64,000 bases of DNA from an uncultured Bacteroidales bacterium (lineage in GTDB: Bacteria; Bacteroidota; Bacteroidia; Bacteroidales; P3), in the NCBI GenBank assembly GCA_900318275.1, contig ONJY01000017.1:1-64000 (forward strand). Reading direction: 5' to 3'. A program made the position numbers and the translations under genes. Below are positions 8,413-45,948 of this stretch, one piece after another. The first letter of the stretch is position 1, and each line of letters opens with the position of its first letter. The notes under the pieces are model-generated. The model had not been told where the DNA came from. It searched no databases and saw nothing but the letters and a program-made list of their open reading frames with translations.

Positions 8413-9798
8413 ATGAGTCTTATAAAGAGTATTTCCGGTATCCGTGGCACCATCGGAGGTGTTGCAGGTGAGGGCCTTAGCCCTATCGATGTCGTCAAGT
8501 TCACGTCGGCTTTCGCCACCTTCCTGCAGAAGCAGAACGGCGCCAAGCGCCTGCGTCTGGCTGTGGGCCGCGACGCACGCCTCAGCGGCGCTATGGTCGA
8601 CCGCCTCGTTGTCGGCACCCTTCAGGGTATGGGTATCGACGTGCTTGAGACAGGCCTGAGCACCACGCCGACCACCGAGATGACTGTCATCGACGCCCAT
8701 TGCGACGGCGGCATCATCATCACCGCCAGCCACAATCCCAAGCATTGGAACGCCCTTAAGCTGCTGAACGCCAAGGGCGAATTTATCAACGATGCCGAGG
8801 GCAAGGAGGTTCTCCGCCTGGCCGAGAGCGGCGAAGTGCGCTACGCCGAGGTCGACGACCTGGGGCAGGTCACAGTCGAGGAGGATTGGATTGACCGTCA
8901 CATACAGCGTGTCCTCGCTCTGCCGCAGGTTGACCGCGAGGCCATCGCCAAAGCCGACTTCAAGGTGGCCGTTGACGCCGTCAACTCGACCGGCGGTTTG
9001 GCTATACCGCGACTGCTGCGCGCCCTGGGTGTGAAGCGTGTCGTGGAGCTCAACTGTGAGCCGACAGGCCATTTCGCCCACAATCCTGAGCCTATACCGC
9101 AGAACCTCACCCAGATAGCTGATGCTGTGGCGCACGAGAAATGCGACCTCGGCATTGTCGTTGACCCCGATGTCGACCGCCTCGCGCTGGTGTGCGAAAC
9201 CGGTGAGATGTTCGGTGAGGAGTACACGCTGGTCAGCGTTGCCGACTATGTGCTGCAGCACACTCCCGGCAACACCGTGAGCAACCTCTCGTCGAGCCGC
9301 GCCCTGCGCGACGTCACACGCCGCTATGCCGGCTGCTCCTATGCCGCTTCGGCGGTGGGCGAAGTCAACGTCACCACCCTCATGAAGGCCACCAACGCCA
9401 TTATCGGCGGTGAAGGCAACGGCGGTGTCATCTATCCCGAGTTGCACTATGGGCGCGACGCCCTCGTCGGCGTGGCCCTCTTCCTTACGCTTCTTGCCAA
9501 GAAAGGCATGAAGGTGAGTGAGTTGAGACGCACTTACCCCGAGTATGTCATCTCGAAGAACCGCAAGGACCTCACCCCCGACATGGATGTGGACTCCCTG
9601 CTGGCCAAGGTCGCGGCGCTGTACAAGAGCCAGAGTGGCAGCGAGGTGAGTACCGTCGACGGCGTTAAGATCGACTTTGAGGATGGCTGGGTGCACCTGC
9701 GCAAGAGCAACACCGAGCCCATCATACGCATCTACAGCGAGGCTGCCACCGAGGAGCGTGCCAACGAGCTCGCCCGTCAGGTGATGGAGCAGATATGA
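8413..9798 (+). CDS. glmM: Phosphoglucosamine mutase / alpha-D-phosphohexomutase
   Basis: This 461-residue protein belongs to the alpha-D-phosphohexomutase family, which moves a phosphate between C1 and C6 of hexose phosphates. GlmM makes glucosamine-1-phosphate for UDP-GlcNAc and the cell wall. The phosphoserine loop is TASHNPKHWNALK with S106. The metal site is DPDVDRLAL (DxDxDR). The sugar-binding loop is GGEGNGGVIYPELHYGRDA. The C-terminal phosphate-binding motif is RKSNTEPIIRIYSEA. In Bacteroidota such proteins are usually annotated glmM, but the motifs do not exclude phosphomannomutase/phosphoglucomutase activity. It follows porX by 11 bases. Confidence 0.85.
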   Translation: MSLIKSISGIRGTIGGVAGEGLSPIDVVKFTSAFATFLQKQNGAKRLRLAVGRDARLSGAMVDRLVVGTLQGMGIDVLETGLSTTPTTEMTVIDAHCDGGIIITASHNPKHWNALKLLNAKGEFINDAEGKEVLRLAESGEVRYAEVDDLGQVTVEEDWIDRHIQRVLALPQVDREAIAKADFKVAVDAVNSTGGLAIPRLLRALGVKRVVELNCEPTGHFAHNPEPIPQNLTQIADAVAHEKCDLGIVVDPDVDRLALVCETGEMFGEEYTLVSVADYVLQHTPGNTVSNLSSSRALRDVTRRYAGCSYAASAVGEVNVTTLMKATNAIIGGEGNGGVIYPELHYGRDALVGVALFLTLLAKKGMKVSELRRTYPEYVISKNRKDLTPDMDVDSLLAKVAALYKSQSGSEVSTVDGVKIDFEDGWVHLRKSNTEPIIRIYSEAATEERANELARQVMEQI

Positions 9799-9823
9799 TC
9801 CAACCCCGCTGGATAGAATGATT

Positions 9824-9853
9824 AAAGGGAGCTGCAATGATGCGGCTCCCTTT
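9824..9853. terminator. Palindromic terminator between convergent genes
   Basis: AAAGGGAGC at 9824-9832 pairs with GCTCCCTTT at 9845-9853 (9 bp, 12-base loop). It lies between the glmM stop and the end of the convergent dksA-like gene, so it may serve both. The T tract is short. Confidence 0.6.
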
Positions 9854-9878
9854 GCGTTATTAAGAGATTTGAAGGTTC

Positions 9879-10283
9879 TTAGCGACGTTTCTTGCTGGCC
9901 TCCTTGGCCTCGACGGTCATGGTGGCGTGGGGGACGATGCGCAGGCGCTCTTTGGGGATGAGTTTGCCCGTTGCCTGGCAGATGCCGTAGGTGCCGTTCT
10001 CGATGCGTATGAGGGCGGCGCGGAGGTCGCGGATGAACTTCTGCTGGCGCGCGGCGAGCTTCTGGTTCTCCTCTTTCAGCAGCACGTTGCTGCCCTCCTC
10101 GAGGGTCTTGAAGGTGGGGGCGGTATCGCTGGCTTCGTTTTCGTTGCCGGCAACGGCCTGCTGCAGCATCTCAAGATCTTTCTCGGCTTTGGCTATCTTC
10201 TCAAGTATTAATTCTTTGAACTCCTGTAGCTCCTCGGCGGAGTAACGGTTCTTCTCGACTGTAGGTACCACTTTCTTTGCCAT
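9879..10283 (-). CDS. DksA/TraR-family RNA polymerase-binding regulator, zinc-less
   Basis: This 134-residue protein starts at ATG 10283 (MAKKVVPTVEKN). The reading frame runs further upstream, but an AAAGGAAAG ribosome-binding site and a promoter at 10304-10311 favour this start. A coiled coil covers about residues 18-75. The C-terminal DksA signature is GTYGICQATGKLIPKERL. DksA proteins reach into the secondary channel of RNA polymerase and act with ppGpp. In DksA the globular domain has four cysteines; here only the cysteine of GIC is kept, as is common in Bacteroidota homologues. The acidic coiled-coil tip is not obvious. Confidence 0.85.
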   Translation of the reverse strand: MAKKVVPTVEKNRYSAEELQEFKELILEKIAKAEKDLEMLQQAVAGNENEASDTAPTFKTLEEGSNVLLKEENQKLAARQQKFIRDLRAALIRIENGTYGICQATGKLIPKERLRIVPHATMTVEAKEASKKRR

Positions 10284-10303
10284 AATCTTTCCTTTCTTTT
10301 GTG

Positions 10304-10311
10304 CAAAAGTA
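10304..10311 (-). promoter_or_regulatory. Putative -7 element of the dksA-like gene
   Basis: The minus strand reads TACTTTTG (TAnnTTTG) 21 bases upstream of the chosen ATG. This argues against using the longer upstream reading frame. Confidence 0.55.
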
Positions 10312-10350
10312 TATATATTTTCCGATATGGGGTTGCGAAAAGTATCAACA

Positions 10351-10884
10351 CTATTTGTTAGTATCGCCGATGTATAGGTCAATCAGGCCGTTAGGAGCTG
10401 TGATGTAGATGGTTTTATTTGTGCGGTCGACGTTGTCGATGACCTCGTCGATGACCGGAATGAGTATCTCGGTGCCGTTTTTCATCACCTGGAAGAGTGG
10501 CTGTGCGGGGTATTCGATGACCTGCTCGATGGTGCCTATGTCGCCGTGCTGGCTGTCTACGACGCGGAATCCCACCACTTCGTGGAAGTAGAAGCGGTTG
10601 CCGTCAAGCTTCGGGAGGAGCGAGAGCGGCAGGTAGAGGTCGTGTCCCACGAGGGCGCCGGCCTGCTCGGGGGTGAGGTCCTCGAAGGTGGCTATGGCCT
10701 TGTTGCCGTTGATGTTGTCGATGCGGAAGAAGTGTGGCACGAGCTGGCCTTTGATCTCGACGAAGGCGGAGTCGAGGTCGAGGTAGTCTTCGGGGCTGTC
10801 GACGTCGAGGAAGAGCACGAGCTGTCCTTTGACGCCCCAGGGCTTGGTGATGCGTCCGAGGCAGTAACATTCATTGATATTCAT
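10351..10884 (-). CDS. rimM: Ribosome maturation factor RimM
   Basis: This 177-residue protein has the normal RimM length. RimM binds S19 and assists maturation of the 30S subunit head. The N-terminal RimM beta-barrel contains GRITKPWGVKGQLVL. The C-terminal PRC-barrel region contains YFHEVVGFRVVD and ILIPVIDEVIDNVD. The gene sits downstream of rpsP, the usual partner, but a hairpin terminator (10925-10962) lies between them. Expression may therefore depend on read-through, or on a weak promoter in the spacer (the T run itself reads TATTTTTTG on the minus strand). Confidence 0.93.
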   Translation of the reverse strand: MNINECYCLGRITKPWGVKGQLVLFLDVDSPEDYLDLDSAFVEIKGQLVPHFFRIDNINGNKAIATFEDLTPEQAGALVGHDLYLPLSLLPKLDGNRFYFHEVVGFRVVDSQHGDIGTIEQVIEYPAQPLFQVMKNGTEILIPVIDEVIDNVDRTNKTIYITAPNGLIDLYIGDTNK

Positions 10885-10924
10885 GCCCCATTAACGCCGG
10901 CGTCTCTTTTTTATTGTCGGCGTG

Positions 10925-10962
10925 CAAAAAATAAGGCTTCCTGCCGTGTGGCGGGAAGCCTT
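10925..10962 (-). terminator. Terminator or attenuator between rpsP and rimM
   Basis: A 13-bp stem (10933-10945 with 10950-10962, one mismatch) has a 4-base loop. On the minus strand it is followed by a six-T run (10926-10931). It is well placed to stop transcription after rpsP. Confidence 0.85.
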
Positions 10963-10982
10963 GTGCTTTGGTTGATCAAGTG

Positions 10983-11540
10983 TTAAGCCTCGGCGGGAGC
11001 CTCTTCGGCGGCGGGGGCGTCGCCCTCGGCGTTCTCGGCGGCTTCGGCAGCGGCCTTGGCGGCGGCTTCAGCCTCGGCGGCAGCCTGACGCTTGGCGGCG
11101 ACGGCGGCGGCCTTCTGCTCGTTGGCTTTCTTCTCGGCCTCGAGACGAGCCTTGCGGGTGTTGCGGGCATCGTTCTCGATGTCGCTGCGCTTGCTGTTTA
11201 TCTTGGCCTCTTTGGCCTGCATCCACTCGTTGAAGCGGACGTCGGCCTGCTCCTGGCTGATGGCACCTTTCTCGACGCCGATCTGGAGGTGGCGGCGGAG
11301 GAGGACACCCTTGTAGGAGAGTATGCGACGTGCGGTGTCGCTGGGTTGGGCGCCATTCTTGACCCATTCGACGGCGCGGTCGAAGTTGAGGTCGATGGTG
11401 GCGGGGTTGGTCAGCGGATTGTAGGTGCCAAGCTTCTCGATAAATTTACCATCGCGAGGTGCACGACCATCCGCAACAACGATATGGTAGAAAGGCTGGT
11501 TCTTTTTACCATGGCGCTGAAGTCTAATTCTTGCTGGCAT
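10983..11540 (-). CDS. rpsP: 30S ribosomal protein S16 with Ala/Glu-rich tail
   Basis: This 185-residue protein begins with the S16 core (PARIRLQRHGKKNQPFYHI, then LGTYNP). The core is about 80 residues in most bacteria. Here it is followed by a basic stretch and a long Ala/Lys/Glu-rich, probably helical extension from about residue 120, ending in GDAPAAEEAPAEA. Extended S16 proteins are usual in Bacteroidota. S16 is an early-binding protein of the 30S subunit. The promoter is at 11594-11601. Confidence 0.95.
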   Translation of the reverse strand: MPARIRLQRHGKKNQPFYHIVVADGRAPRDGKFIEKLGTYNPLTNPATIDLNFDRAVEWVKNGAQPSDTARRILSYKGVLLRRHLQIGVEKGAISQEQADVRFNEWMQAKEAKINSKRSDIENDARNTRKARLEAEKKANEQKAAAVAAKRQAAAEAEAAAKAAAEAAENAEGDAPAAEEAPAEA

Positions 11541-11593
11541 AATTGTTTGATTTTAAATTGTTTGTTGATAATTGTTGTTTTGTTAACAGATTG

Positions 11594-11601
11594 CAAAGAT
11601 A
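11594..11601 (-). promoter_or_regulatory. Putative -7 element of rpsP
   Basis: The minus strand reads TATCTTTG, matching TAnnTTTG, giving a 5' untranslated region of roughly 45-50 bases. The leader is AT-rich with a repeated TTGTTTGTTGATAATTG-like pattern. No strong -33 is seen. Confidence 0.6.
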
Positions 11602-11861
11602 CAACTTTTTCCGAAACTGGAGAAATTTTTTTGATGAAATGTGTTTTTGTGGTGGTTCCGACCCGTAAGGCGGCAGTTTGGACTTAGGTGTTATGGGTTG
11701 GTTTTGCATGGGGTGTTGTGGCCGTTTAGTAGCCGTTTAGTAGCCGTTTAGGACGGGTTTAGGTGGGGTTGATATTGTGAGGCGATGGAACTGCTGGTCT
11801 TTTTTGTGGAGGTTGGATGGCGGGTCGGGATGGATTTGGTGGAGTGTGGTGTCGATTTTTT
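11602..11861. other. Intergenic spacer with an 11-bp repeat array
   Basis: This spacer between the divergent rpsP promoter and the promoter at 11862 has no convincing gene. A reading frame that continues upstream from the gene at 11914 is rejected because the promoter lies inside it. It contains the 11-bp tandem array at 11721-11753 and a G/T-rich stretch beyond it. Confidence 0.7.
11721..11753. repeat. Three 11-bp tandem repeats (element B)
   Basis: The units are GCCGTTTAGTA, GCCGTTTAGTA and GCCGTTTAGGA, in perfect 11-bp register. They lie about 110 bp upstream of a promoter. The unit is nearly the reverse complement of element A at 391-423. Confidence 0.9.
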
Positions 11862-11892
11862 TTTGTCAGGTCGGAAAAAATGTGTATCTTTG
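11862..11892 (+). promoter_or_regulatory. Promoter of the secreted protein at 11914
   Basis: TTTG at 11862-11865 and TATCTTTG at 11885-11892 are 19 bases apart. The context (T tract, G-T/G-CAGG, CGGAAAAAA, GTGTATnTTTGCA) closely resembles the promoter at 62071-62103. Confidence 0.8.
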
Positions 11893-11913
11893 CATTTTAA
11901 AATATTATGCTAT

Positions 11914-13386
11914 ATGAGAAAGAGTGTATTGTTGTTCACGATGATATGCGTTGCCGTGTGTGGCGTGCAGGCCCAGCAGCGGATAGAGGTGCAGAAGAAC
12001 CTTGAGGGCAAGAAGCTGGATGCCGCCTTTGTGCGCGAGGCTAGATACCTTGGCCAGTATGACGGGCTTTATTGCTTTGTCGGCGACGGCTACAAGCATC
12101 GCAAGCGCCTTGTGCTCGTGGATCACAATATGGAGCCGCTGCGTGTGATGGAGATGCCCGAGAGCAGCGCCAACTGCGACGTGATGGCCAGCAGCATCAG
12201 CGGCAGCACGGTGAGTATGTTGCTGGTTGACAACGACCCGCGCGGGCAGGCTCTGGTGTTCAGGGGGTGCTATGATTTGGACAGCATGCGTCCGGCCGAG
12301 GGCGGCAGGGGTTTGGAATTGCTTGATTCTGTACCCTTTGGCCGCAACGACCGCTGCCTTGTGTGGGCAGGCACGTCGCCCAACGCGCGCTACAACGGCA
12401 TAGTTATGATTGTGGAGTTTACCGACCGCAAGCAGTATACCGCCAAGGCTGTGCTTTTCGACGCGCAGATGAAGGAGGTGTGGCACTACGACTACGCTAT
12501 GGGGTCGATGAACGACCTGAAGGTCACCGACGACGGTTCCATAGTGACCCTGGGTTATGAGATAGAGGGCGAGGAGACGCATTTTGTGTTCAACATCATG
12601 GACGCCAAGCGTGGCGACACCTATGACGCCGTCATCAAGTGCGACCCGATACGTGAGCTGAAGCTCGCCGGAGTGCTTGGCAGCCATATCATGGCTGTGG
12701 GCCTCTTCAACCCGTGGGAGGCACACACGGGCAGTAATGTCTGCGGCGGTGTCGTGGGCCTGTCGTTCGACAAGGATTCGGCCATACTCACGGGCTTCAC
12801 GATGAGGCCTTTCCAGAACGAGGATATCAACATAATGTACAACACGAAGACCAAGAAGGTGCAGCGTGAGCAGGAGGTGGAGCTGGTGTCGGTCGTGGGT
12901 ACGGTGATGACCCAGGAGGGTGCCGTTGTGGCCGTTGGACGCAACTACAGCCGCGAGAATATCGAGGACAACGGCAGCGTGACTTACTCCTACCACCGCG
13001 TGGGTCTTCACCTGGTGTCGGTGGACACGCTGGGGCATGTGCGGTGGGCGCGCAACATCAGGCGCAACGACATGCAGAAGAAAAACGACAACATGCTCAA
13101 TGTGTCGCTGCTGCAGAACAATGGCCGCACATATATCATGAAGTCGGAGAACAAAAAGTATCCCGCCATATACGACATTGCCAAGGAGGCCAAGGAATTC
13201 AAGGTCGGCTCTAAGGGCAACCTGGTGCTCTACAGCATCGGCAGAGAGGGCGATGTGGAGAAGAGCGTCATAGAGCGCAAGACTCCCTACAGCCTGGTGC
13301 GCAGCTTGGTGCGCCCCGACGGTGTGATGGCGTTGTACACGCAGGACGGCAGTCGCACGCGTGTGGTCGAACTGAGGGTGAAATGA
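11914..13386 (+). CDS. Secreted protein of unknown function
   Basis: The start is ATG 11914 (MRKSVLLFTMICVAVCGVQA), chosen because it gives a clean signal peptide cleaved at VQA-QQ and lies just after the promoter at 11862-11892. The mature protein of about 470 residues shows repeated short beta-strand patterns with charged turns (for example RLVLVDHNMEPLRV, FTDRKQYTAKAVLFDAQMKEVW). These suggest a propeller-like fold, but I recognise no family. There is no T9SS tail. It ends 17 bases before uvrA, with no terminator between, so the two may be co-transcribed. Confidence 0.75.
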   Translation: MRKSVLLFTMICVAVCGVQAQQRIEVQKNLEGKKLDAAFVREARYLGQYDGLYCFVGDGYKHRKRLVLVDHNMEPLRVMEMPESSANCDVMASSISGSTVSMLLVDNDPRGQALVFRGCYDLDSMRPAEGGRGLELLDSVPFGRNDRCLVWAGTSPNARYNGIVMIVEFTDRKQYTAKAVLFDAQMKEVWHYDYAMGSMNDLKVTDDGSIVTLGYEIEGEETHFVFNIMDAKRGDTYDAVIKCDPIRELKLAGVLGSHIMAVGLFNPWEAHTGSNVCGGVVGLSFDKDSAILTGFTMRPFQNEDINIMYNTKTKKVQREQEVELVSVVGTVMTQEGAVVAVGRNYSRENIEDNGSVTYSYHRVGLHLVSVDTLGHVRWARNIRRNDMQKKNDNMLNVSLLQNNGRTYIMKSENKKYPAIYDIAKEAKEFKVGSKGNLVLYSIGREGDVEKSVIERKTPYSLVRSLVRPDGVMALYTQDGSRTRVVELRVK

Positions 13387-35404: not shown

Positions 35405-36684
35405 TGACTGAGGCGTTCTTGCAGTACGTGTGGCAGCATCAGTTGCTCGACCACGGGCTGACCACCGTTGATGGCCAGCCTGTTGTCGTCTTGCGTGCTG
35501 GTGAACTAAATCGCGATGCGGGCCCGGATTTCTTCAATGCAAGAGTGCGTGTCGGAGACGTGGAATGGGCTGGCAACGTGGAAGTCCATATACATACGTC
35601 AGATTGGGATGCGCACCGTCATGCGCAGGATGCAGCATACAATAATGTGGTGCTTCATGTTGTTTATGAGCATGATTGTGAGATAAAACTTCAGAGTGGT
35701 CGAGTGCCGCCGACGGTTGAGCTAAAGAACTATCTACCTCCTGCGGTAGTGTCCAACTACGAGGCGTTGATGAGCCCTGACGGTGATTATGCAGTGCCGT
35801 GTGGGAAAAGAGTAGGGGATGTGCCGCAGTTTATGATAAAGTCTTTCCTCGACAGGCTCTTGGCTGAACGCATCATGGCAAAAACAGAGACGGCACGCCG
35901 CCTGCTCGAAGAGAGTCATGGTGGTTGGGAGCAGGCATGTTATTGGCTTGTGGCCCGCTATTTTGGCGGCAAGGTCAATGCGTTGCCTTTCGAGATGTTG
36001 GCTAAGGCCACCGACCAGCGTTTGTTGGCTCGTTGGAAGGACAACCAACGCAGGGTTGAAGCCGTTCTTATGGGACAGGCTGGTTTGCTCGAAGGGTACT
36101 TCGAAGATGAATATCCACGTCTGCTGCAGAAAGACTATGGTGCGTTGAAAGTGGGTACCGGTATGAACTCCATGGGCGGATACCTATGGCGGTTCTATTG
36201 TCTGCGCCCGTCGAGTTTTCCTACAATCCGCATCAGCCAATTTGCGCAGATGCTTTCAACAACTTCCAGTCTTTTCTCAACGCTGCTCGACATTCACGAT
36301 GTCAAGGAAATGTTGAAGATGTTTGACCAAAGCGCTGCCGAGTATTGGAACAATCATTACCGTTTTGACACTGCAACAGAAAAACAGACGGTGAAGCACG
36401 TTGGCAAGATGCAGGCGCAGTTGCTCATTATCAATGCGTGGGTCCCGCTGTTGTTCCTTTACGGTATCGTACATGGACAAGAAAAGTACAAGGAGCAGGC
36501 TGTGGAACTACTGAATCAGCTGCCTGCTGAGGATAATGCAGTGATGCGAAGATGGTGCCAGTATGGCATAAAACCCAATAACGCAGCCGAGAGTCAAGCG
36601 TTGTTGCAGCTTGAAAACAACTATTGCAAAAACCGCAAATGCTTAGAGTGCGGTATAGGCTTTCAAATACTTAAGCACAAATGA
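35404..36684 (+). CDS. DUF2851-family protein
   Basis: This 426-residue protein matches the Bacteroidota DUF2851 family by its opening (TEAFLQYVWQHQLL) and by AGELNRDAGPDFFNARV, WAGNVEVHIHTSDWDAHRHA and NNVVLHVVYEHD. The conserved D/E/H residues in a beta-rich N-terminal block resemble a nuclease-like core, but this is inference. The C-terminus has a CRNRKCLECGIG-like cysteine motif (CKNRKCLECGIG). It is translationally coupled to dnaJ (TGATG) and to murF-alr (ATGA). Confidence 0.85.
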   Translation: MTEAFLQYVWQHQLLDHGLTTVDGQPVVVLRAGELNRDAGPDFFNARVRVGDVEWAGNVEVHIHTSDWDAHRHAQDAAYNNVVLHVVYEHDCEIKLQSGRVPPTVELKNYLPPAVVSNYEALMSPDGDYAVPCGKRVGDVPQFMIKSFLDRLLAERIMAKTETARRLLEESHGGWEQACYWLVARYFGGKVNALPFEMLAKATDQRLLARWKDNQRRVEAVLMGQAGLLEGYFEDEYPRLLQKDYGALKVGTGMNSMGGYLWRFYCLRPSSFPTIRISQFAQMLSTTSSLFSTLLDIHDVKEMLKMFDQSAAEYWNNHYRFDTATEKQTVKHVGKMQAQLLIINAWVPLLFLYGIVHGQEKYKEQAVELLNQLPAEDNAVMRRWCQYGIKPNNAAESQALLQLENNYCKNRKCLECGIGFQILKHK

Positions 36685-39137
36685 AAATATCAGAGATTGG
36701 TACGGTTATAAAGCCCGTGGATGAACATGTCGCTATGCCGGAAGGTGAAGTGATGCATCTGCTCACCGACAGCAGGCATCTCGCAGAACCGCAGGGAACG
36801 CTATTTTTTGCTATTGTTACAAGGCGTAATAGTGGTGTGAAATACATAGATGAGTTGTACCGGAAGGGGGTGAGGTCGTTCGTTGTGCCAAGAGATTGTA
36901 ACATCGTGTATGACGATGCTAATATCTGGCGTGTCAATGACGTGGTACTGGCTTTGCAGCTTATTGTAGCAAGACATAGGGATCAGTTCAATATTCCGGT
37001 AATAGGTATTACGGGTAGTAACGGCAAGACGATAGTAAAGGACTGGTTGGTGCAGATGCTCGTGTCTGACGGGCAGGTGGTGTCAAGTCCTAAGAGTTAT
37101 AATTCTCAGATAGGAGTACCGCTGTCTGTGTGGCAAATGTGCGATAAAGACAAGATAGGTGTCTTTGAGGCAGGTATATCAGAAGCTGGTGAAATGCCGA
37201 GATTACAAAAGGTGATAAAGCCTACGGTGGGAATATTCACCAATATCGGTCAGGCACATGACGAGAATTTCCTAACTCGTGGACAGAAGATTGCAGAGAA
37301 GTTGCAGCTATTTACCCATTGTGAAACCTTAATCTATTGTTTGGACCATCGGGATATACATTCTGCCATAAGTGGTATAGAGAACTTTCGTCGTGTCCGC
37401 CTCTTCACGTGGGGGCATAGCGATGAAGCTGACGTGAAGCTTCTCGGAGTGAAGGTGAATCAGGGATGTTCTGTACTTGATGTGGAGTATAAGGGTACCG
37501 GCATGCAAGTATCCATTCCGTTTGTCGACAGGGCTTCGCAGGAGAATGCTATGCATTGCATTGCTATGATGTTGTATCTTGGGTGCTCGGCCAACACCAT
37601 CGTGGAGCGATGTTCAAAGTTAACTCCTGTTGAAATGCGCCTTGAGATGAATGAGGCTACCGGCAATTGTACGCTCATCAATGATAGCTATTCGCTGGAT
37701 ATTAACTCGCTTAATATTGCTTTAGATTATCTCGGACATATTAATCAGCATAATAACAAGGTGTTAATCATCAGTGATTTTATGCAGACTGGTATGACTG
37801 ATGCTGAGCTATATTCCCAGGTGGCATCGCTTGTGCAACAGCGTGGTATTACAAAGCTTATAGCCATCGGTGAGGCTTTGGGACGCAGTAAGTCGTTGTT
37901 TGACGGCATAGAGGCTACGTTTTATTCTACGACTCAAGATTTTATTGATAAATATAATGTTGACCTTCTGCAGGACAGCACGATTTTGCTGAAGGGAGCG
38001 CGTGTTTTCGGCTTTGAGCGTATAGCCAAGTTGCTTCAAAAAAAGAATCATGAGACAGTATTGGAAGTAAACATCGGCGCTTTGATACACAACCTTAACT
38101 ATTATCGAGCCAGACTAAAGCCAGCGACGAAGCTTATGGCTATGGTTAAAGCATCCAGCTATGGCGCGGGTAGGGTTGAGGTGGCATCTGCCTTGCAGTA
38201 TTGCGGTGTGGATTATCTGACTGTGGCTTATGCTGACGAGGGTGTAGATTTGCGTCGTGGTGGCATACATCTTCCTATTATGGTCATGAATCCGGAGGAA
38301 GCATCTTTTGACGATATTATTCATTATCGCCTCGAACCAGACATTTATTCGTTCCGTATATTGGATTTATTTGCCAGTCGTCTGCAACTATTGTCATTGG
38401 GTAGTCCCTACCCGGTGCATATTGAATTTGACACAGGTATGCACCGTCTTGGTTTTTGTGGTGAGGATGTGGAGTCGTTGCTTGAAAAACTTGAGAGTCT
38501 GAAAGATGTATTGAGGGTGACAAGTGTCTTCACGCATTTGGCATGCGCCGATGAACCATCGAAGGATGATTTTACGCGAACACAAATTGCCCGGTTCAAA
38601 GAGTGGAGCATCAAACTGCCAGGGATTAAGCATATTCTTAATTCCTCGGGTATAACCAGGTTCCCGGAAGCACAGCTGGATATGGTTCGCCTGGGTATTG
38701 GCCTTTACGGTGTGAGTCCGGAACCTGATGTACAGAGTAGTCTCAAGCAGGTCAGCCGCCTTGTGACACTCATTTCGCAGGTCAAAGATATTCCTGCAGG
38801 AGACACTGTCGGCTATGGTTGCCGCTGGCGTGCTGCACGTCCGTCCCGTATAGCTATCATAACCATAGGCTATGCTGACGGTCTTTATCGTAGCCTAGGC
38901 CATGGACGAGGTAATGTCTTAGTCAATGGCAAAGAGGCTCCGATTGTTGGTACTATATGCATGGATATGTGTTTTATTGATGTAACGGGTGTGGATTGTC
39001 GAGAGGGGGACCGTGTTATAATATTTGGAGAAGGCGACCTGTTGCAACGCAATGCAGAAGCTGCAGGCACAATACCGTATGAGCTGCTCACTGCTGTATC
39101 CCCAAGAGTCAAACGTGTGTACTATCATGAGGAATAG
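36681..39137 (+). CDS. Bifunctional MurF ligase / alanine racemase
   Basis: This 818-residue protein is a MurF-Alr fusion as known in Bacteroidota. Residues 1-455 are a Mur ligase with P-loop ITGSNGKTIVKDW near 110-122 and later ligase motifs (GEMPRLQKVIKPTVGIFTN). Residues 456-818 are a PLP alanine racemase: PLP lysine K490 in MVKASSYGAG, catalytic Y712 in VGYGCRW, and the substrate-side segment GTICMDMCFID. Racemase makes D-alanine; MurF adds D-Ala-D-Ala to the UDP-muramoyl tripeptide. A second, stand-alone MurF is encoded at 43470-44759, so the MurF part here may have another or a regulatory role. It overlaps DUF2851 by 4 bases. Confidence 0.93.
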   Translation: MKISEIGTVIKPVDEHVAMPEGEVMHLLTDSRHLAEPQGTLFFAIVTRRNSGVKYIDELYRKGVRSFVVPRDCNIVYDDANIWRVNDVVLALQLIVARHRDQFNIPVIGITGSNGKTIVKDWLVQMLVSDGQVVSSPKSYNSQIGVPLSVWQMCDKDKIGVFEAGISEAGEMPRLQKVIKPTVGIFTNIGQAHDENFLTRGQKIAEKLQLFTHCETLIYCLDHRDIHSAISGIENFRRVRLFTWGHSDEADVKLLGVKVNQGCSVLDVEYKGTGMQVSIPFVDRASQENAMHCIAMMLYLGCSANTIVERCSKLTPVEMRLEMNEATGNCTLINDSYSLDINSLNIALDYLGHINQHNNKVLIISDFMQTGMTDAELYSQVASLVQQRGITKLIAIGEALGRSKSLFDGIEATFYSTTQDFIDKYNVDLLQDSTILLKGARVFGFERIAKLLQKKNHETVLEVNIGALIHNLNYYRARLKPATKLMAMVKASSYGAGRVEVASALQYCGVDYLTVAYADEGVDLRRGGIHLPIMVMNPEEASFDDIIHYRLEPDIYSFRILDLFASRLQLLSLGSPYPVHIEFDTGMHRLGFCGEDVESLLEKLESLKDVLRVTSVFTHLACADEPSKDDFTRTQIARFKEWSIKLPGIKHILNSSGITRFPEAQLDMVRLGIGLYGVSPEPDVQSSLKQVSRLVTLISQVKDIPAGDTVGYGCRWRAARPSRIAIITIGYADGLYRSLGHGRGNVLVNGKEAPIVGTICMDMCFIDVTGVDCREGDRVIIFGEGDLLQRNAEAAGTIPYELLTAVSPRVKRVYYHEE

Positions 39138-39189: not shown

Positions 39190-42100
39190 ATGAAGAAGAT
39201 TGCACTTGAAGATTTGGGCGAAATTTTCGCCAAGGAAATGAATATTAGGGCAGATATAGTGCCTGTTATTGATGAAGGTGATGAAGATTTGCTCCTCAAC
39301 GATAATACTATTGAGGATGAAATGCCGGTATTGCCTGTGATGGATCAGGTTCTCCTACCTGGTGTTATACTGCCTATTGCTGCCAGTCGCGAGAAGTCGC
39401 GCCATTTGCTTGATGACATAAAAGGTTCCAATCGTCATATTCTCGTATTCACGCAGAGTAACAAGGCCGAAGATCCGACGGAATATGACTTGTATCATGT
39501 TGGTGTTGTGGCCAAGGTACTTAAGGTGTTTGAATTCAAGAAAGATATCACTATAGCGGTATTGCAGGGTGTTATGCGCTGTCACTCGCTTGTGATTCAT
39601 CGTGCATTCCCTTATATGCTGGGTCATGTAGTGCTTGCACCGGAGATAGATGCAGGTATGCATACTCCCGCCTTTAAGCGTAAGGTTAAACGCCTTCGCA
39701 GTCAATATAGTGATCTTCTGCACATCCGTATGCCGGATGACGAGATTGGCTCAATGGTCAGTGGCATTGGGAGCGACAAGATATTCATTAACTTTGCTGC
39801 TTCTCACATGGAACTTGACGCGCATGAGAAATATGAGTTTCTGGCTTGTGAGAGTTATACAGAGCGTGTCGACAAGATGTTGGCGCAGATGGGTACTCTT
39901 AAGGGTTTAGAGGAATTGCGTCGAGAGATTGACGATAAGACACGTGATGTTATTGGCAAGCAGCAGCGCGAGTACTACCTACGTCACCAGATGGATGTCA
40001 TTCAAGAAGAACTTGGAGGACCGTCTGATGGTGTTATGTCTACATCAGATCACGACGAGCTTGCAAAGCGTGCAGAGAAGATGCAATGGAGCAAGTCTGT
40101 TAAGGAGGTTTTTGACAAAGAGCTTGCCAAGATGAGCCGAATACCGCAGATGTCACCAGACTATTCGATGCAGCTTAACTATCTTGAAATGTTGTTGGAC
40201 CTTCCGTGGGACAAGGTCGTTGAGGAAAGTTATGACCTTAAAGCTGCACGTGGTATACTTGATGCCGATCACTATGGTATAGACAAGGTTAAAGATCGTA
40301 TTATAGAGTATCTTGCTGTCATGAAACGGCAGGAGGAGCGCGGAGTTGCCAGAAAGGCTCAGGTCCTGTGCCTTGTCGGCCCTCCGGGTACCGGCAAGAC
40401 GTCTGTCTGCCGTAGCATTGCCGCCGCCATGCACCGTCCCTATCGACGTGTTGCGCTTGGTGGACTTCACGATGAGGCAGAGATACGCGGCCACCGCCGC
40501 ACTTACATTGGTGCTATGCCTGGCCGAATAATTCAAGAATTGGCAAAGGCTGGAGCTTCCAATCCTGTCTTTGTTCTTGACGAGGTGGACAAAGTGCAGC
40601 GAAACAACTTCACCGGAGATCCTTCGTCGGCACTTCTTGAAGTGTTGGATCCCGAACAGAACTGTCGTTTCCATGATAATTATCTCGGTGTGGATTACGA
40701 CCTGTCGCGTGTGTTCTTTATTGCTACGGCAAATAACATCTCTGATATTCAGCCGGCTCTGCTTGACCGAATGGAGGTCATTGACTTCAGCGGCTATGTT
40801 CTTGAGGAGAAAGAGCAGATTGCGCAGCGCCACCTGCTGCCACGCATAATGAAGGAGAATGCGTTAGACCGCCGTTCTTTCAAGCTCGACAACGCCAACC
40901 TCGATGTAGTCATCAATGACTATACCCGTGAGGGGGGCGTTAGGCAATTGGAGAAGCAACTCTCTAAGCTTGTACGCCACCGCATCGTGGAGATAGAGCA
41001 AGGGGCGCGTCCCAAGAGCGGAGTGACCCCTGATGAGATAAAAAAAGTCCTCGGTCTTCCTATTCACAATAGTTCCGTCGCCCAGCGCATGCCGCGTGAG
41101 GGCGTGGTCACAGGTCTTGCCTGGACCCCTGTGGGCGGCGAGATCCTCTTTATCGAGAGTTCTCTTAGCAAAGGCAAAGGCACTCTTACGATGACGGGAA
41201 ACCTTGGCGATGTAATGAAGGAGTCGACAACGTTGGCTTTCGAGTATCTGAAGTCCAACGCAAAGGAGCTCGGAGTAAATGAATCCACCATCTCTTCAAG
41301 CAATATACATATCCATGTCCCCGAGGGAGCGACCCCCAAGGATGGCCCATCGGCTGGTATAACTATTTTTATCGCCATGCTTTCTGCCTTTACCCATAGC
41401 GAGGTTCGTCCCAATGTCGCTATGACCGGAGAAATAACCTTACGCGGTGATGTTACACCTGTAGGTGGTATCAAGGAGAAGGTGCTCGCTGCCAAGCGTG
41501 CCGGGATCACGGACATTATTCTTTGCTCTGATAATCGCCGAGATGTCGAAGAGATAAATGCTTCATATATTTCAGGGCTGAATTTTCACTATATAGACAC
41601 TATCTCTCAGGCAATCCCTCTTGCTATCAATGCAAAAAGGGGAAAGACAACTGTTGCCAAGCGTAAGACAACGACGTCGGCACGCAAAACAGCAAAAAAT
41701 CTTCTGCTATTGTTGTTTGTGCTTGCCTCATTCCTAAGCCCACTAAAAGCACAGCAATCGGCATTTAGCGCCACACAGCAGAAAATGGCCCTCTTGCCGG
41801 GAGAAGTAGGAAATGTGTCCATTGTTGACGGTAATCTGTATTGTTATGCCTCTGAAGTGCTGCTTCTTGCCCAGCGTAGTGGTGAGCAGCTTCTTGGCTT
41901 CTGGGCAGATACTACATTTGTTCGCCTCGCTGATAATATAGAGTACGTAGTGCGCCATCCTGGTACTGGAGACCTTTATTTTACACAGCGCAATAAGCAT
42001 GGAGTGTCTTATCTGTTTTGTTATCGTCATCCGGAGGGCAAGAAAGGTAGGGTGAAGAAAGTGCGTATGGGGTCGATGTCTGTTGAGCATCCAACGTTCA

Positions 42101-43164
42101 CCACCGACGGCCGTATTATGATTTTTTCTTCACAAGACAGTCGTAGGTCCTTTGGTGGGTATGACCTCTGGTATTCTGTCTACGAAGATGGGCGCTGGTC
42201 GCGACCGACCAACCTTGGCAATCGTATCAATACCGAGTATGATGAGGTTACGCCATCAATTTATCGAGACTGCCTGCTCTTTTCATCCAATGGTCAAGAT
42301 GCTGATCATGCTTACCTTAACATCTATTCTACACGTCTGATCTCGGATCGTGTTACTGGCGATACAATCGGCATGTTGCAGATTGGCCGTTGCCGCGTCC
42401 AAAAACTCCCAGAGCCACTTAATAGTCCAGATGCCGACGACTTCGATATGGTTGTTGACACTGCTAGAAACTATGGTTACTGGGTGTCAAAGCGTGTTGA
42501 GAGTGACAGTGACTCTCAGCTCTATTCATTTACTGGGGGGCTTGACGGTGTTCTTCTATGGGGTCGTGTTCTTGACAAGTATGACACTCCGCTCCAAGGG
42601 GTTAATGTTGTTGCTGCTCAGAATGGCGTTCCGCTGTGCACAACAGTCACGGATTCCGATGGCTTCTATCATCTCTATCTGCAAAGCGAGCAGTATTATG
42701 AGCTTACGTTTGCCCTGCACGGCTATTTTGTGTCTTACGAATCGGTAAACACCGCCAAGTCAGACGATGAGTTCCTTATTGCCGAACAGCGGCTGGATGT
42801 TGCTATAGATAAGCTCCTTCTTGATCAGCGCATCTATTATTCAGACCTTTTCGGCCCCAATGTAGACCTTGAGCTTAGCGATTATGGCAAGACCCAGCTT
42901 GAGCCGCTTGTCCGTTTTCTGACAGACAATCCTGATATAGAGGTCTCTCTCTCGCTTACCAATGACATCACCGATGATGCCGCTTTCAACCGTCACCTCA
43001 CCGACCACCGTCTGCATACCCTCCAAGGGTATCTTTATAGCATCCTGCCTCCCACTGTCAGTTTGAAGCTCGACAATGCATGTGCTGGGCCTTCAGGCTG
43101 TTCATCAGCCACGGGTCTCTCGCGTCTGGTTGTTGTCCTTCACGACCCGGCGACGAAAGAATAA
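39190..43164 (+). CDS. lon: Lon protease fused to a PorE-like envelope protein
   Basis: This protein has 1324 residues in one frame. Residues 1-837 are a complete Lon: the N-terminal LAN domain, Walker A GPPGTGKT near 397-404, [11 protein letters not shown], and a Ser-Lys protease with S721 (DGPSAG) and K764 (GGIKEK). Residues 815-837 are Lys/Arg-rich. Residues 838-854 are hydrophobic and end LSPLKA-QQ, like a signal peptide with a cleavage site. Residues 855-1324 look like a secreted protein: PD40/propeller strands ([27 protein letters not shown]) near 965-1080, a carboxypeptidase-regulatory-like domain ([17 protein letters not shown]) near 1125-1200, and a degenerate OmpA-like end ([32 protein letters not shown]). 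This order resembles the T9SS protein PorE without its TPR. No stop codon or plausible ATG separates the halves. A terminator follows. Confidence 0.88.
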
Positions 43165-43189
43165 GAGCCGTGTTTATGCTATAAAATAA

Positions 43190-43222
43190 AACAGCATCTA
43201 TGTATAGGTGCTGTTTTTTTTG
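43190..43222 (+). terminator. Terminator after lon
   Basis: An 11-bp stem (43190-43200 with 43205-43215, one G-T) has a 4-base loop and a T run to 43221. It separates the lon transcript from the convergent tRNA gene. Confidence 0.9.
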
Positions 43223-43253
43223 TTTGTGAGAGTGTTGTGTAAATAAAAAAAAG

Positions 43254-43327
43254 TCGGGGTGAAAAGACTCGAACTTTCGACCCCTTGCACCCCATGCAAG
43301 TGCGCTAGCCAACTGCGCCACACCCCG
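43254..43327 (-). tRNA. tRNA-Pro (anticodon GGG)
   Basis: This 74-base cloverleaf is read on the minus strand: acceptor stem CGGGGTG/CACCCCG (perfect, with the C1-G72 pair typical of tRNA-Pro), D stem GCGC/GCGC, anticodon stem CTTGC/GCAAG with loop ATGGGGT (anticodon GGG, then G37), T loop TTCGAGT, and discriminator A. The CCA end is not encoded. A strong promoter lies upstream at 43364-43394. Confidence 0.93.
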
Positions 43328-43363
43328 AACTTTTTGTCAGCTTCCTTTCGCTGAAATCGGGTG

Positions 43364-43394
43364 CAAAAATACTACTTTTTTCCGATATGGCAAA
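43364..43394 (-). promoter_or_regulatory. Promoter of tRNA-Pro
   Basis: On the minus strand TTTG (43391-43394) and TATTTTTG (43364-43371) are 19 bases apart. The start would be about 30 bases upstream of the mature tRNA 5' end. Confidence 0.85.
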
Positions 43395-43469
43395 ATCTTT
43401 TTTTGCGTCAATGCTTTGGTTTTTTTATCTTTTGTTGATTTACAGTTTGTTGTGCTGCTAATTTTTTAG

Positions 43470-44759
43470 TCAAAGAAACTCCTCGAGGGTCCAAAGCCGG
43501 TTGGAGTTGGAGCCTTTGATGAGTATTGTATAGCCTTTTGGACCCCATTCTTTCAGCAGAGTGATGGCCTCTTCGGTGGTGTTTACGTGTTTTGTATTGT
43601 TTGTCAGGCTGATGCCGTCAAATTCGGGGCCTATGAGCAGGCAATAGTCAAGGTGGCTTTTGGCGAGAGTATCGACGAGGCGTTGGTGCTCTTCGAGTGA
43701 TGTACTGCCGAGTTCACGCATCGCGCCAATAATAGCTGCTTTGTGTGGTGCTTTTATGTCAGAGAAAGCCCTGAGTGCTGCTGCCATTGATGAAGGGTTG
43801 GCGTTGTAGCAGTCGAGGTATAAGTTGTTGTTGGCGGTCTCTTTCCACTGCGAGCGTTGGTTGGCTGGAGTGTAAGCTTCGATGGCTTCCTTGATGTCCC
43901 AAGGCTCTACGCCGAAGTGAAGACCCACGGCGACAGCTGCCATTGCATTGTCGAAGTTGTATGCGCCAAGGAGATGGCTGTGGGTGTTATAGACATTGTC
44001 GCCCACCTCGAAGTAGAAATGCATGTAGGGGTCGCTGCCCACGTATGTTCCACGAGTGTCGGCTTCTGCCGAGCTGCCGTATGTCAGGTGGTGGTCAATG
44101 TTTTTTGCTATAGGCATCAGGTGCTCGTTGTCGGCGTTGACAAAGACAAGCCCGTTTTTTGCCGCGAGGTGGCGGTAAAGTTCTGTTTTTGTACGTATAA
44201 CCCCATCAAAGCTCCCGAAGCCTTCCAGGTGTGCGCGTCCAACGTTGGTGATGAGGCCGCAGTCGGGGTCAGCAATACTGCACAGACCGGCAATCTCCCC
44301 TGGGTGGTTGGCCCCCATCTCTACAATGGCTATCTGGGTGTCGGCGGGAATGGCGAGTATCGTTAAAGGCACACCGAGGTGGTTGTTGAAGTTGCCGGCT
44401 GTCGCCGAGGTTTTGTAGCGTCGTGCCAGCACGGCGTGTACGAGTTCCTTTGTCGTGGTCTTGCCGTTTGTGCCGGTTATGCCTATGACGGGTATTGTCA
44501 AGTGGCGTCGGTGTTCGCGTGCCAGCTCCTGCAGTGTGGCGAGCACGTCTGGCACCACGATGCAGCGGTCGTCGACCTTGTACTGAGGGTCGCTGATGAC
44601 GCAGAGTGCGGCGCCCTGCTCAAGTGCCTGCGGTGCGAAAGCGTTGCCGTCGAAGTTTGCGCCGCGGAAGGCGAAGAATATACATCCCGGGGTGATTTCC
44701 CTCGAGTCTGTAGTTACGTGACGGCTTGCAAGATATGCGTTGTAAAGTTTATCTATCAT
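43470..44759 (-). CDS. murF: UDP-N-acetylmuramoyl-tripeptide--D-alanyl-D-alanine ligase MurF
   Basis: This 429-residue Mur ligase is of usual length. Motifs are TTDSREITPGCIFFAFRG, the ATP loop GITGTNGKTTTKELV near residue 103, FNNHLGVPLTIL, EMGANHPGEIAGLC, GRAHLEGFGS, and the C-terminal YNANPSSMAAALRAF. It adds D-Ala-D-Ala to the peptidoglycan precursor. It overlaps the lipoprotein gene upstream by 4 bases (ATGA) and is the last gene of the long minus-strand run. It is the more canonical of the two MurF copies here. Confidence 0.93.
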   Translation of the reverse strand: MIDKLYNAYLASRHVTTDSREITPGCIFFAFRGANFDGNAFAPQALEQGAALCVISDPQYKVDDRCIVVPDVLATLQELAREHRRHLTIPVIGITGTNGKTTTKELVHAVLARRYKTSATAGNFNNHLGVPLTILAIPADTQIAIVEMGANHPGEIAGLCSIADPDCGLITNVGRAHLEGFGSFDGVIRTKTELYRHLAAKNGLVFVNADNEHLMPIAKNIDHHLTYGSSAEADTRGTYVGSDPYMHFYFEVGDNVYNTHSHLLGAYNFDNAMAAVAVGLHFGVEPWDIKEAIEAYTPANQRSQWKETANNNLYLDCYNANPSSMAAALRAFSDIKAPHKAAIIGAMRELGSTSLEEHQRLVDTLAKSHLDYCLLIGPEFDGISLTNNTKHVNTTEEAITLLKEWGPKGYTILIKGSNSNRLWTLEEFL

Positions 44760-45259
44760 GGTATTGATGGCAATATTTCCTGTTCAAAGATGTCGCGACG
44801 TATGATGCGGTAATGAGGGTTATAGGCGGCCTTGAAGGCGGCGCTGTGGCTGACCACGTATCTGGGGTCTGGTGTGGGCAGACCTTCCGCGCTGCGCACC
44901 ATGGCGTCGGCCAGTTGTTCGGCGGTGATGGCGCCGTGCTGTACAAGGCTTAGGTTCACGCGCACGAAGTTGCTGTCGCACAGAGTGTATTCGTAGGGAG
45001 GCATGCCGCTTGGGCTGTCCATTGTTTCAAACTCTGCGGTGATGTAGCGCAAGGCTGCGGTGGAGTCGGTGAGCAGGTGTCCGGGTCCGTATAGGTCTTG
45101 GAAGACCATCTTGTATAGGTCTGTGGGTTCTGCTGCCGGGTATTGCTCTGAGTATGCAATAAGGGCTTCTGCGCAGCTGCTGCATGCTGTCTCGTGTGTC
45201 TTTTGCTGGCAAGAGACAAGCATGACGACTGCAAACAAGACGGTGGCTGTCTTTTTCAT
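44756..45259 (-). CDS. Small lipoprotein of unknown function
   Basis: This 167-residue protein starts at ATG 45259 (MKKTATVLFAVVMLVSC, lipobox LVSC). The frame is open much further upstream, but that part lies over tatC in another frame and has no coding character. The mature part has conserved-looking segments (YKMVFQDLYGPGHLL, RVNLSLVQHG, DPRYVVSHSAAFKAAYNPHYRII). I do not recognise the family. It is coupled by 4-base overlaps to tatC upstream and murF downstream. Confidence 0.75.
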   Translation of the reverse strand: MKKTATVLFAVVMLVSCQQKTHETACSSCAEALIAYSEQYPAAEPTDLYKMVFQDLYGPGHLLTDSTAALRYITAEFETMDSPSGMPPYEYTLCDSNFVRVNLSLVQHGAITAEQLADAMVRSAEGLPTPDPRYVVSHSAAFKAAYNPHYRIIRRDIFEQEILPSIP

Positions 45260-45948
45260 TGTTCTGTATGTTTTACTATCAGTATGCTTAATTCCCACAG
45301 CAGGTATATCGGCACCGACACCAGCGCCAGCGTGAAGGGGTCGCCGGTGGGGGTGATGACGGCCGCGATGATGACGATGGCCACTATGGCGTGGCGGCGG
45401 TATTTCTTCATGAAGTCGGCCTTGAGCACCCCGATTTTGGCCAGCAGCCAGCAGAGCACCGGCAGTTCGAACACCACCCCCATCACCAGGCTCATGACTC
45501 CCAGTACGGAGATATAGCTCGACAGCGTGATGGTGTTGGCGACATCGGCGCTCACTTGGTAGCCGCCGAGGAAGCGAACGGTGATAGGGAATATGACGAA
45601 GTAGTTCAAGGCTATGCCTGCCAGAAAGAGCAGATAGCCTGTCGCCACAGCCCTTATGGCCACATGTCGTTCGGTGCTGTAAAGCCCCGGAGCGACAAAG
45701 GCGAAGAGCTGGTAGATAATGTATGGCGAGACTAAGAGCAGTCCAGCCCATAAGGCCACGCGCATGTGAGTGAGAAACTGCTGCGTGAGCTCCACGTTGA
45801 TGAGCTGCATGTCGGCGGGTTTTGGGTGTAGGATGACGGAGAAGAGGGCGTCCTTGAAGCAGAAGCAGCCCACGGCCGCCACCACGGCCGCCAGCAGCAC
45901 ATACCAGATGCGCCGCCGCAACTCGTCAAGGTGCTCCCAGAAAGTCAA
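45256..45948 (-). CDS. tatC: Sec-independent translocase subunit TatC
   Basis: This 230-residue protein has six membrane segments. TatC motifs are TFWEHLDELRRR at the N-terminus, the P-rich first loop, the FAFVAPGLY segment, FELPVLCWLL and VIAAVITPTGDPFTL. TatC binds twin-arginine signals and with TatA moves folded proteins across the inner membrane. The start appears to be TTG at 45948, exactly where TatC should begin. A GTTGAAAATT micro-repeat lies immediately upstream. tatA is 33 bases upstream. Confidence 0.93.
   Translation of the reverse strand: MTFWEHLDELRRRIWYVLLAAVVAAVGCFCFKDALFSVILHPKPADMQLINVELTQQFLTHMRVALWAGLLLVSPYIIYQLFAFVAPGLYSTERHVAIRAVATGYLLFLAGIALNYFVIFPITVRFLGGYQVSADVANTITLSSYISVLGVMSLVMGVVFELPVLCWLLAKIGVLKADFMKKYRRHAIVAIVIIAAVITPTGDPFTLALVSVPIYLLWELSILIVKHTEQ

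Follow-up and report, generated by a model that had tools for sequence, protein, structure and literature searches.

A 64,000-nucleotide stretch of DNA from an uncultured Bacteroidales bacterium (assembly GCA_900318275.1, contig ONJY01000017.1; referred to here as the window) was found to carry a gene in which a complete Lon protease is followed, in the same reading frame, by a PorE-like protein, with a stretch resembling a signal peptide between the two. We consider it probable, going by sequence comparisons, that this gene is a recent and selected in-frame fusion of two neighbouring genes, and that it encodes a polyprotein precursor which would be cut at A854|Q855.

A Lon protease and a PorE-like protein in one reading frame

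A sequence-only reading of this DNA had described positions 39190-43164 as one open frame made up of a complete Lon, an internal signal-like stretch and a PorE-like protein, and our analysis confirmed this description (Table 1). The family profile TIGR00763 matched residues 46-808 with 794.7 bits against a cut-off of 608.05, which places the first half among the LonA proteases, and Pfam located the domains LON_substr_bdg (44-233), AAA (393-531), Lon_lid (555-606) and Lon_C (612-813). The motifs that we take to be the Walker, serine and GGIKEK lysine motifs are legible as well. Judged by its sequence the Lon half is a complete LonA, with predicted protease and ATPase activity, and both halves look functional.

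One Lon above the family cut-off was observed in the genome that contains the window (G000, 88.6% complete) and one in the second genome that carries the fusion (G022, 98%), and in each case it was the fused one; the other Lon-family matches in these two genomes reached 28.9 bits at most. Since it is the sole Lon above the cut-off, the fused copy must supply Lon function, provided that this function is needed and that no copy is missing from the drafts. The gene upstream of lon, on the forward strand at 36681-39137, holds Mur ligase middle and alanine racemase domains in a single frame, a fusion that is usual in Bacteroidota.

Table 1. Features of the fused gene and its surroundings, in positions of the window
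Feature	Position	Strand	Evidence or remark
Fused lon-porE-like gene, 1,324 aa	39190..43164	+	single ORF; same frame in G022
Lon protease, residues 1-808	39190..41613	+	TIGR00763, 794.7 bits; Pfam domains; residues 1-818 match solved Lon structures
Basic linker, residues 809-837	41614..41700	+	weak pairwise alignments to Lon tails of relatives
Hydrophobic stretch of internal signal peptide, residues 838-854	41701..41751	+	hydropathy; conservation of Q855
PorE-like half, predicted to be exported, residues 855-1324	41752..43161	+	family profile and structure matches
PD40 propeller repeat	42088..42171	+	weak in window protein (E 0.03); 67/82 family members at E<=0.01
CarboxypepD_reg-like domain (CRD)	42559..42768	+	below Pfam cut-off in window protein; 80/82 members
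OmpA-like C-terminal domain with D1259/N1267/R1274	42838..43143 (edges approximate)	+	profile match to 6top, E 4e-10
Run of six A (A6) at the junction	41694..41699	+	identical in G022
Out-of-frame (+1) ATG frame with basic residues	41630..41737	+	stops upstream of the mature part; probably a chance frame
Tract of about 99% identity with G022, carrying the fusion	40270..45565		background mostly 80-95%

The second half resembles PorE

The best NCBIfam match of residues 855-1324 was PorE (NF052230), at 104-107 bits where the family cut-off is 600. As to an N-terminal TPR, the match starts at position 279 of 648 in the profile, and no TPR family was found among the matches of the second half or of 82 members of its family; nor is there a Cys within residues 838-870 that could form a lipobox. 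The fusion had been suggested to tie Lon to a part of the type IX secretion system (T9SS). We did not find support for this, given the missing TPR and lipobox, the low score, and the better PorE scores of three further contigs from this genome, namely C26 (two pieces, 135 and 284 bits), C20 and C16, none of them above the cut-off. The T9SS was evident in that genome from SprA (2,383 bits) and 42 tail-domain matches. Since PorE matches below the cut-off also occurred in 6 of 14 control genomes, such matches are unspecific. The second half is thus best described as PorE-like but not PorE, and a T9SS role for it is not supported.

The CRD and PD40 matches of the window protein fall below the Pfam cut-offs, and Pfam OmpA was matched in 9 of the 82 aligned members at E<=0.01, the window protein not being one of these. 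The profile of the family matched solved OmpA-like domains, including 6TOP, which is PorE (E 4e-10). The accessible part of PMC7192894 gives D576, N584 and R591 as residues with which PorE binds peptidoglycan, and D1259, N1267 and R1274 of the fused protein repeat their spacing of +8 and +15. Over 110 aligned sequences the D is conserved in 56, the N in 75 and the R in 109. From this similarity, the second half probably binds peptidoglycan via its OmpA-like domain.

The two genes are separate neighbours in relatives

All 120 available genomes of the genus, that of the window included, were searched for the pair. Seven genomes with only weak matches were set aside, and the remaining 113 yielded 116 places, as three of them had two each. 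A separate lon was located upstream on the same strand in 110 places, the two genes were fused in 2 (the window and G022), and 4 had no lon upstream. This bears out the proposal, made from the window sequence, of a recent fusion of neighbouring genes. The same reading had reckoned that relatives with two separate genes, together with evidence of an internal translation start here, would speak against its interpretation as a whole; the separate genes are indeed there, and evidence of an internal start in the window was not found.

From the lon stop to the second start, the 110 pairs showed a median distance of 7 nt, with 37 overlapping (25 of them by 4 nt), 60 at 0-60 nt and 13 beyond, including an unusual gap of 437 nt at L117; these figures are approximate because the second-gene starts were picked automatically and some are wrong, as at L114, while L086, L093, L094 and L103 lack a basic start. 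With few exceptions, Lon has a basic tail in the closest relatives, and the second gene there begins with a start codon and a signal peptide of its own. The two genes are in the same phase in 27 pairs, and in 17 of these (L060, L084, L097 and 14 other loci) the lon stop alone separates them, so that rare readthrough would yield the same kind of fusion protein. Two further candidate fusions were rejected. The long frame of G156 (open frame 1331) proved spurious, as lon ends there at a stop codon and the following ATG overlaps it by 4, and the apparent fusion at L185 was an alignment overrun over two genes, which we counted as separate.

The places without lon upstream are of different kinds. 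At L107 (G010) and L112 (G038) there is none in 4.1 kb and 5.8 kb upstream, respectively, and these are probably other paralogues. In contrast to most of the genus, the porE-like gene at L118 (G051) has no lon in the 2.4 kb that remain before its contig ends. At L135 (G073) a contig edge leaves 7 bases upstream, and L136 of the same genome does follow lon. Two lon/porE-like pairs on different contigs were seen in G177 (L181 and L195) and in G174 (L179 and L196), owing to either duplication or mixed bins.

An order-wide search for Lon (119 genomes, one per genus, G000 included) gave no other Lon frame longer than 904 aa among the matches listed. Outside the genus, 20 lon loci of the order were examined, including one of the same family, and none had a match of the PorE-like profile within about 3 kb downstream, as against all 5 genus controls (431-701 bits); the whole genome of the same-family G198 gave only weak matches, the best at 64.7 bits. 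It therefore seems that the pair is characteristic of the genus, and the fusion of a single lineage within it.

The junction between the two halves

After Lon, the Lys/Arg/Thr-rich linker runs into a Leu-rich hydrophobic stretch of 17 residues, followed by QQSAF. The 21 residues preceding the stretch carry a charge of +8, where the separate relatives have a median of +2 and a maximum of +7. The mean Kyte-Doolittle value of the stretch over 12 residues is 3.12, and only 7 of 110 separate relatives score higher. Two proteins that are separate elsewhere are thus in one frame with a stretch between them that, by its composition, is like a signal peptide, which is what a polyprotein would contain. 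In relatives, Lon ends in a Lys/Arg-rich tail, of which the linker appears to be an in-frame homologue. Its alignment with the Lon tail of G076 is in frame and pairs VAKRK with AAKRN, and the bases of the 4-nt overlap of G076 are altered in the window, with gaps, both as seen in a weak pairwise alignment. A single change within such a 4-nt overlap can remove the stop and the start together.

The sequence-only reading had noted that no stop codon and no ATG with a basic region divides the halves. In frame this holds: from residue 790 onwards the first in-frame ATG encodes M866, which lies within the mature part, and the only in-frame codons before it that are usable as a start are ATT, CTG, ATA, ATC, TTG and GTG. 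Upstream of the hydrophobic stretch, as far back as residue 790, there is no ATG, GTG or TTG in frame. An ATG at 41630 had been missed in that reading; it is out of frame and opens a basic +1 frame with a stop at 41737. Scanning of 41500-41900 for sigma-70-like internal promoters, a class which does not include the Bacteroides-type promoters, revealed none.

These starts bear on an alternative in which the DNA does hold the fusion, yet the cell makes the second half mostly as a protein of its own, either from a non-AUG internal start or from the ATG at 41630 with slippage on the A6 run. Relatives do start their second gene on its own, an ATC at residue 813 would keep the basic region, and the ATG with its basic +1 frame and the A6 run are both present. 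Against this, the region from residue 790 to the stretch has no in-frame ATG, GTG or TTG, a TTG or GTG start inside the stretch would lose the basic region, and the Lon tails of relatives resemble the in-frame linker rather than the +1 frame. An A6 run is also short for slippage. We regard separate production of the second half as fairly unlikely.

A signal peptidase site resembling that of relatives is predicted at A854|Q855, and Q855 is kept in 90% of 110 aligned sequences, the window included. Were the chain never cut, it would remain in the inner membrane, with Lon on the inner side and the PorE-like domain on the outer side in contact with the wall. The same sequence evidence applies to such a protein, and the stretch is hydrophobic enough for an anchor, but the likeness of A854|Q855 to the site of relatives and the retention of Q855 speak for cutting, and we think an uncut chain quite improbable.

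A second genome carries the same fusion

The same frame of 3,975 nt is present in G022 with no indels, three differing bases in the linker and one in the signal stretch, the differences near the junction falling in codons 822 (V to A), 826, 833 and 848. Since two genomes have the same frame with different junction bases, an assembly fault is probably not the source of the fusion. A sequencing or assembly error joining two frames could be imagined at the A6 homopolymer, where a one-base error would shift frames, and the relatives do have two genes and both assemblies are drafts, but an identical junction in two assemblies with different bases, for which the same mistake would have had to occur twice, makes such an error highly improbable.

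Comparison of the window contig with G022 in bins of 500 bases gave identities mostly of 80-95%, rising to about 99% over some 5 kb from about 40,270 to 45,565. This tract contains the junction and looks like one of recent homologous recombination; being about 99% identical within a background of 80-95%, it indicates that the fusion was moved, or homogenised, by recombination. Also inside the tract, 3' of the fused gene and on the opposite strand, are a tRNA-Pro(ggg) at 43253-43327 and a gene at 43470-44759 that is MurF-like by eye. Identity with G022 is raised in a second region, at about 9000-12000, where five of six 500-base bins are at 96-99.4% and one is at 91.8%, so the two species seem to have swapped DNA more than once. 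As only two genomes carry the fusion, in a recombining lineage, the two carriers probably go back to a single event.

Over codons 360-1324, the two copies differ by 27 synonymous changes and 1 non-synonymous change (V822A). The codons of the Lon part within the tract account for 15 synonymous and 0 non-synonymous changes (P about 4e-10 to 1e-8) and those of the exported part for 9 and 0 (P about 2e-6 to 2e-5), while the linker and signal, which are short and have few changes, show 3 and 1 (P 0.06-0.12). These values were calculated for a transition bias (kappa) of 1-8, taking the fusion to predate the split of the copies and the changes to be independent. The 27:1 excess of synonymous changes points to purifying selection on both halves after fusion, and, even without an in-frame ATG of its own, the exported half is very likely still produced and of use. 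A dying or neutral fusion, whose exported half is no longer useful, would suit its confinement to one lineage but hardly the 9 synonymous against 0 non-synonymous changes of that half, and we give it very little credence.

Discussion

The reading that we favour, a selected fusion cut between A854 and Q855, can be put as follows. The ribosome would make Lon first, and Lon would stay in the cytoplasm. The basic tail of Lon, together with the Leu-rich stretch, would then act as an internal signal sequence for SRP/Sec, the basic side remaining cytoplasmic. The second half would be threaded across the inner membrane to the periplasm, and signal peptidase I would cut after A854 and free the PorE-like protein. 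Lon would keep a hydrophobic membrane segment at its C-terminus unless this were trimmed. The predicted orientation is right for an internal signal, with the basic side in the cytoplasm and the second half in the periplasm. A two-compartment protein, possibly cut by signal peptidase, had been one of the options raised from the window sequence, and it fits the conserved site, the strong hydrophobic core and the purifying selection on the exported half. Since an uncut exported tail on a hexameric cytoplasmic protease could do harm, cutting would need to be efficient.

A more far-reaching picture would be that the sole Lon shares a polyprotein with a wall-binding protein that is exported, is directed to the membrane by an internal signal as it is made, stays tethered to the inner membrane after the cut by what is left of its C-terminal segment, and has been spread between species by recombination. 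We put this forward tentatively, as it strikes us as somewhat doubtful in its entirety. If it were true, a bacterial Lon would have been turned into a membrane protease through gene fusion. The gene offers a natural experiment, in which a cytoplasmic housekeeping protease and a probably exported protein are coupled at a ratio of one to one, with selection acting on both. If the favoured reading is true, an internal signal sequence can work even when more than 800 residues of a cytoplasmic protein precede it, and neighbouring genes that are probably coupled can become one, with products for different compartments and neither of them lost. That most of the genus has retained the pair also hints that Lon and the envelope are linked in a way not studied so far.

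Our literature search, of limited coverage, returned no report of a Lon fusion or of an internal-signal polyprotein of this arrangement. In Bradyrhizobium, FbcH is a precursor of cytochrome b and c1, which signal peptidase separates. In the lon-porE-like fusion, as in FbcH, two proteins share one frame and are joined by an internal signal peptide, here a putative one. The two proteins of FbcH belong to one complex and the first of them is integral to the membrane, whereas Lon is a protease of the cytoplasm, normally soluble, and is not known to be connected with the second half. The fused Lon has all the domains of the LonA proteases (TIGR00763), but unlike them it adds a C-terminal linker, a hydrophobic segment and a PorE-like protein of 470 residues. 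With PorE of the T9SS, as far as the accessible part of PMC7192894 describes it, the second half has in common the order of propeller-like, CRD and OmpA-like parts and the spacing of the peptidoglycan-binding residues; it differs from PorE in having no TPR match and no lipobox, in scoring far below the cut-off and in adjoining lon. The closest counterpart is the lon/porE-like pair of the genus itself, which has the same genes in the same order and on the same strand, but as two genes with their own starts in 110 of the 116 places.
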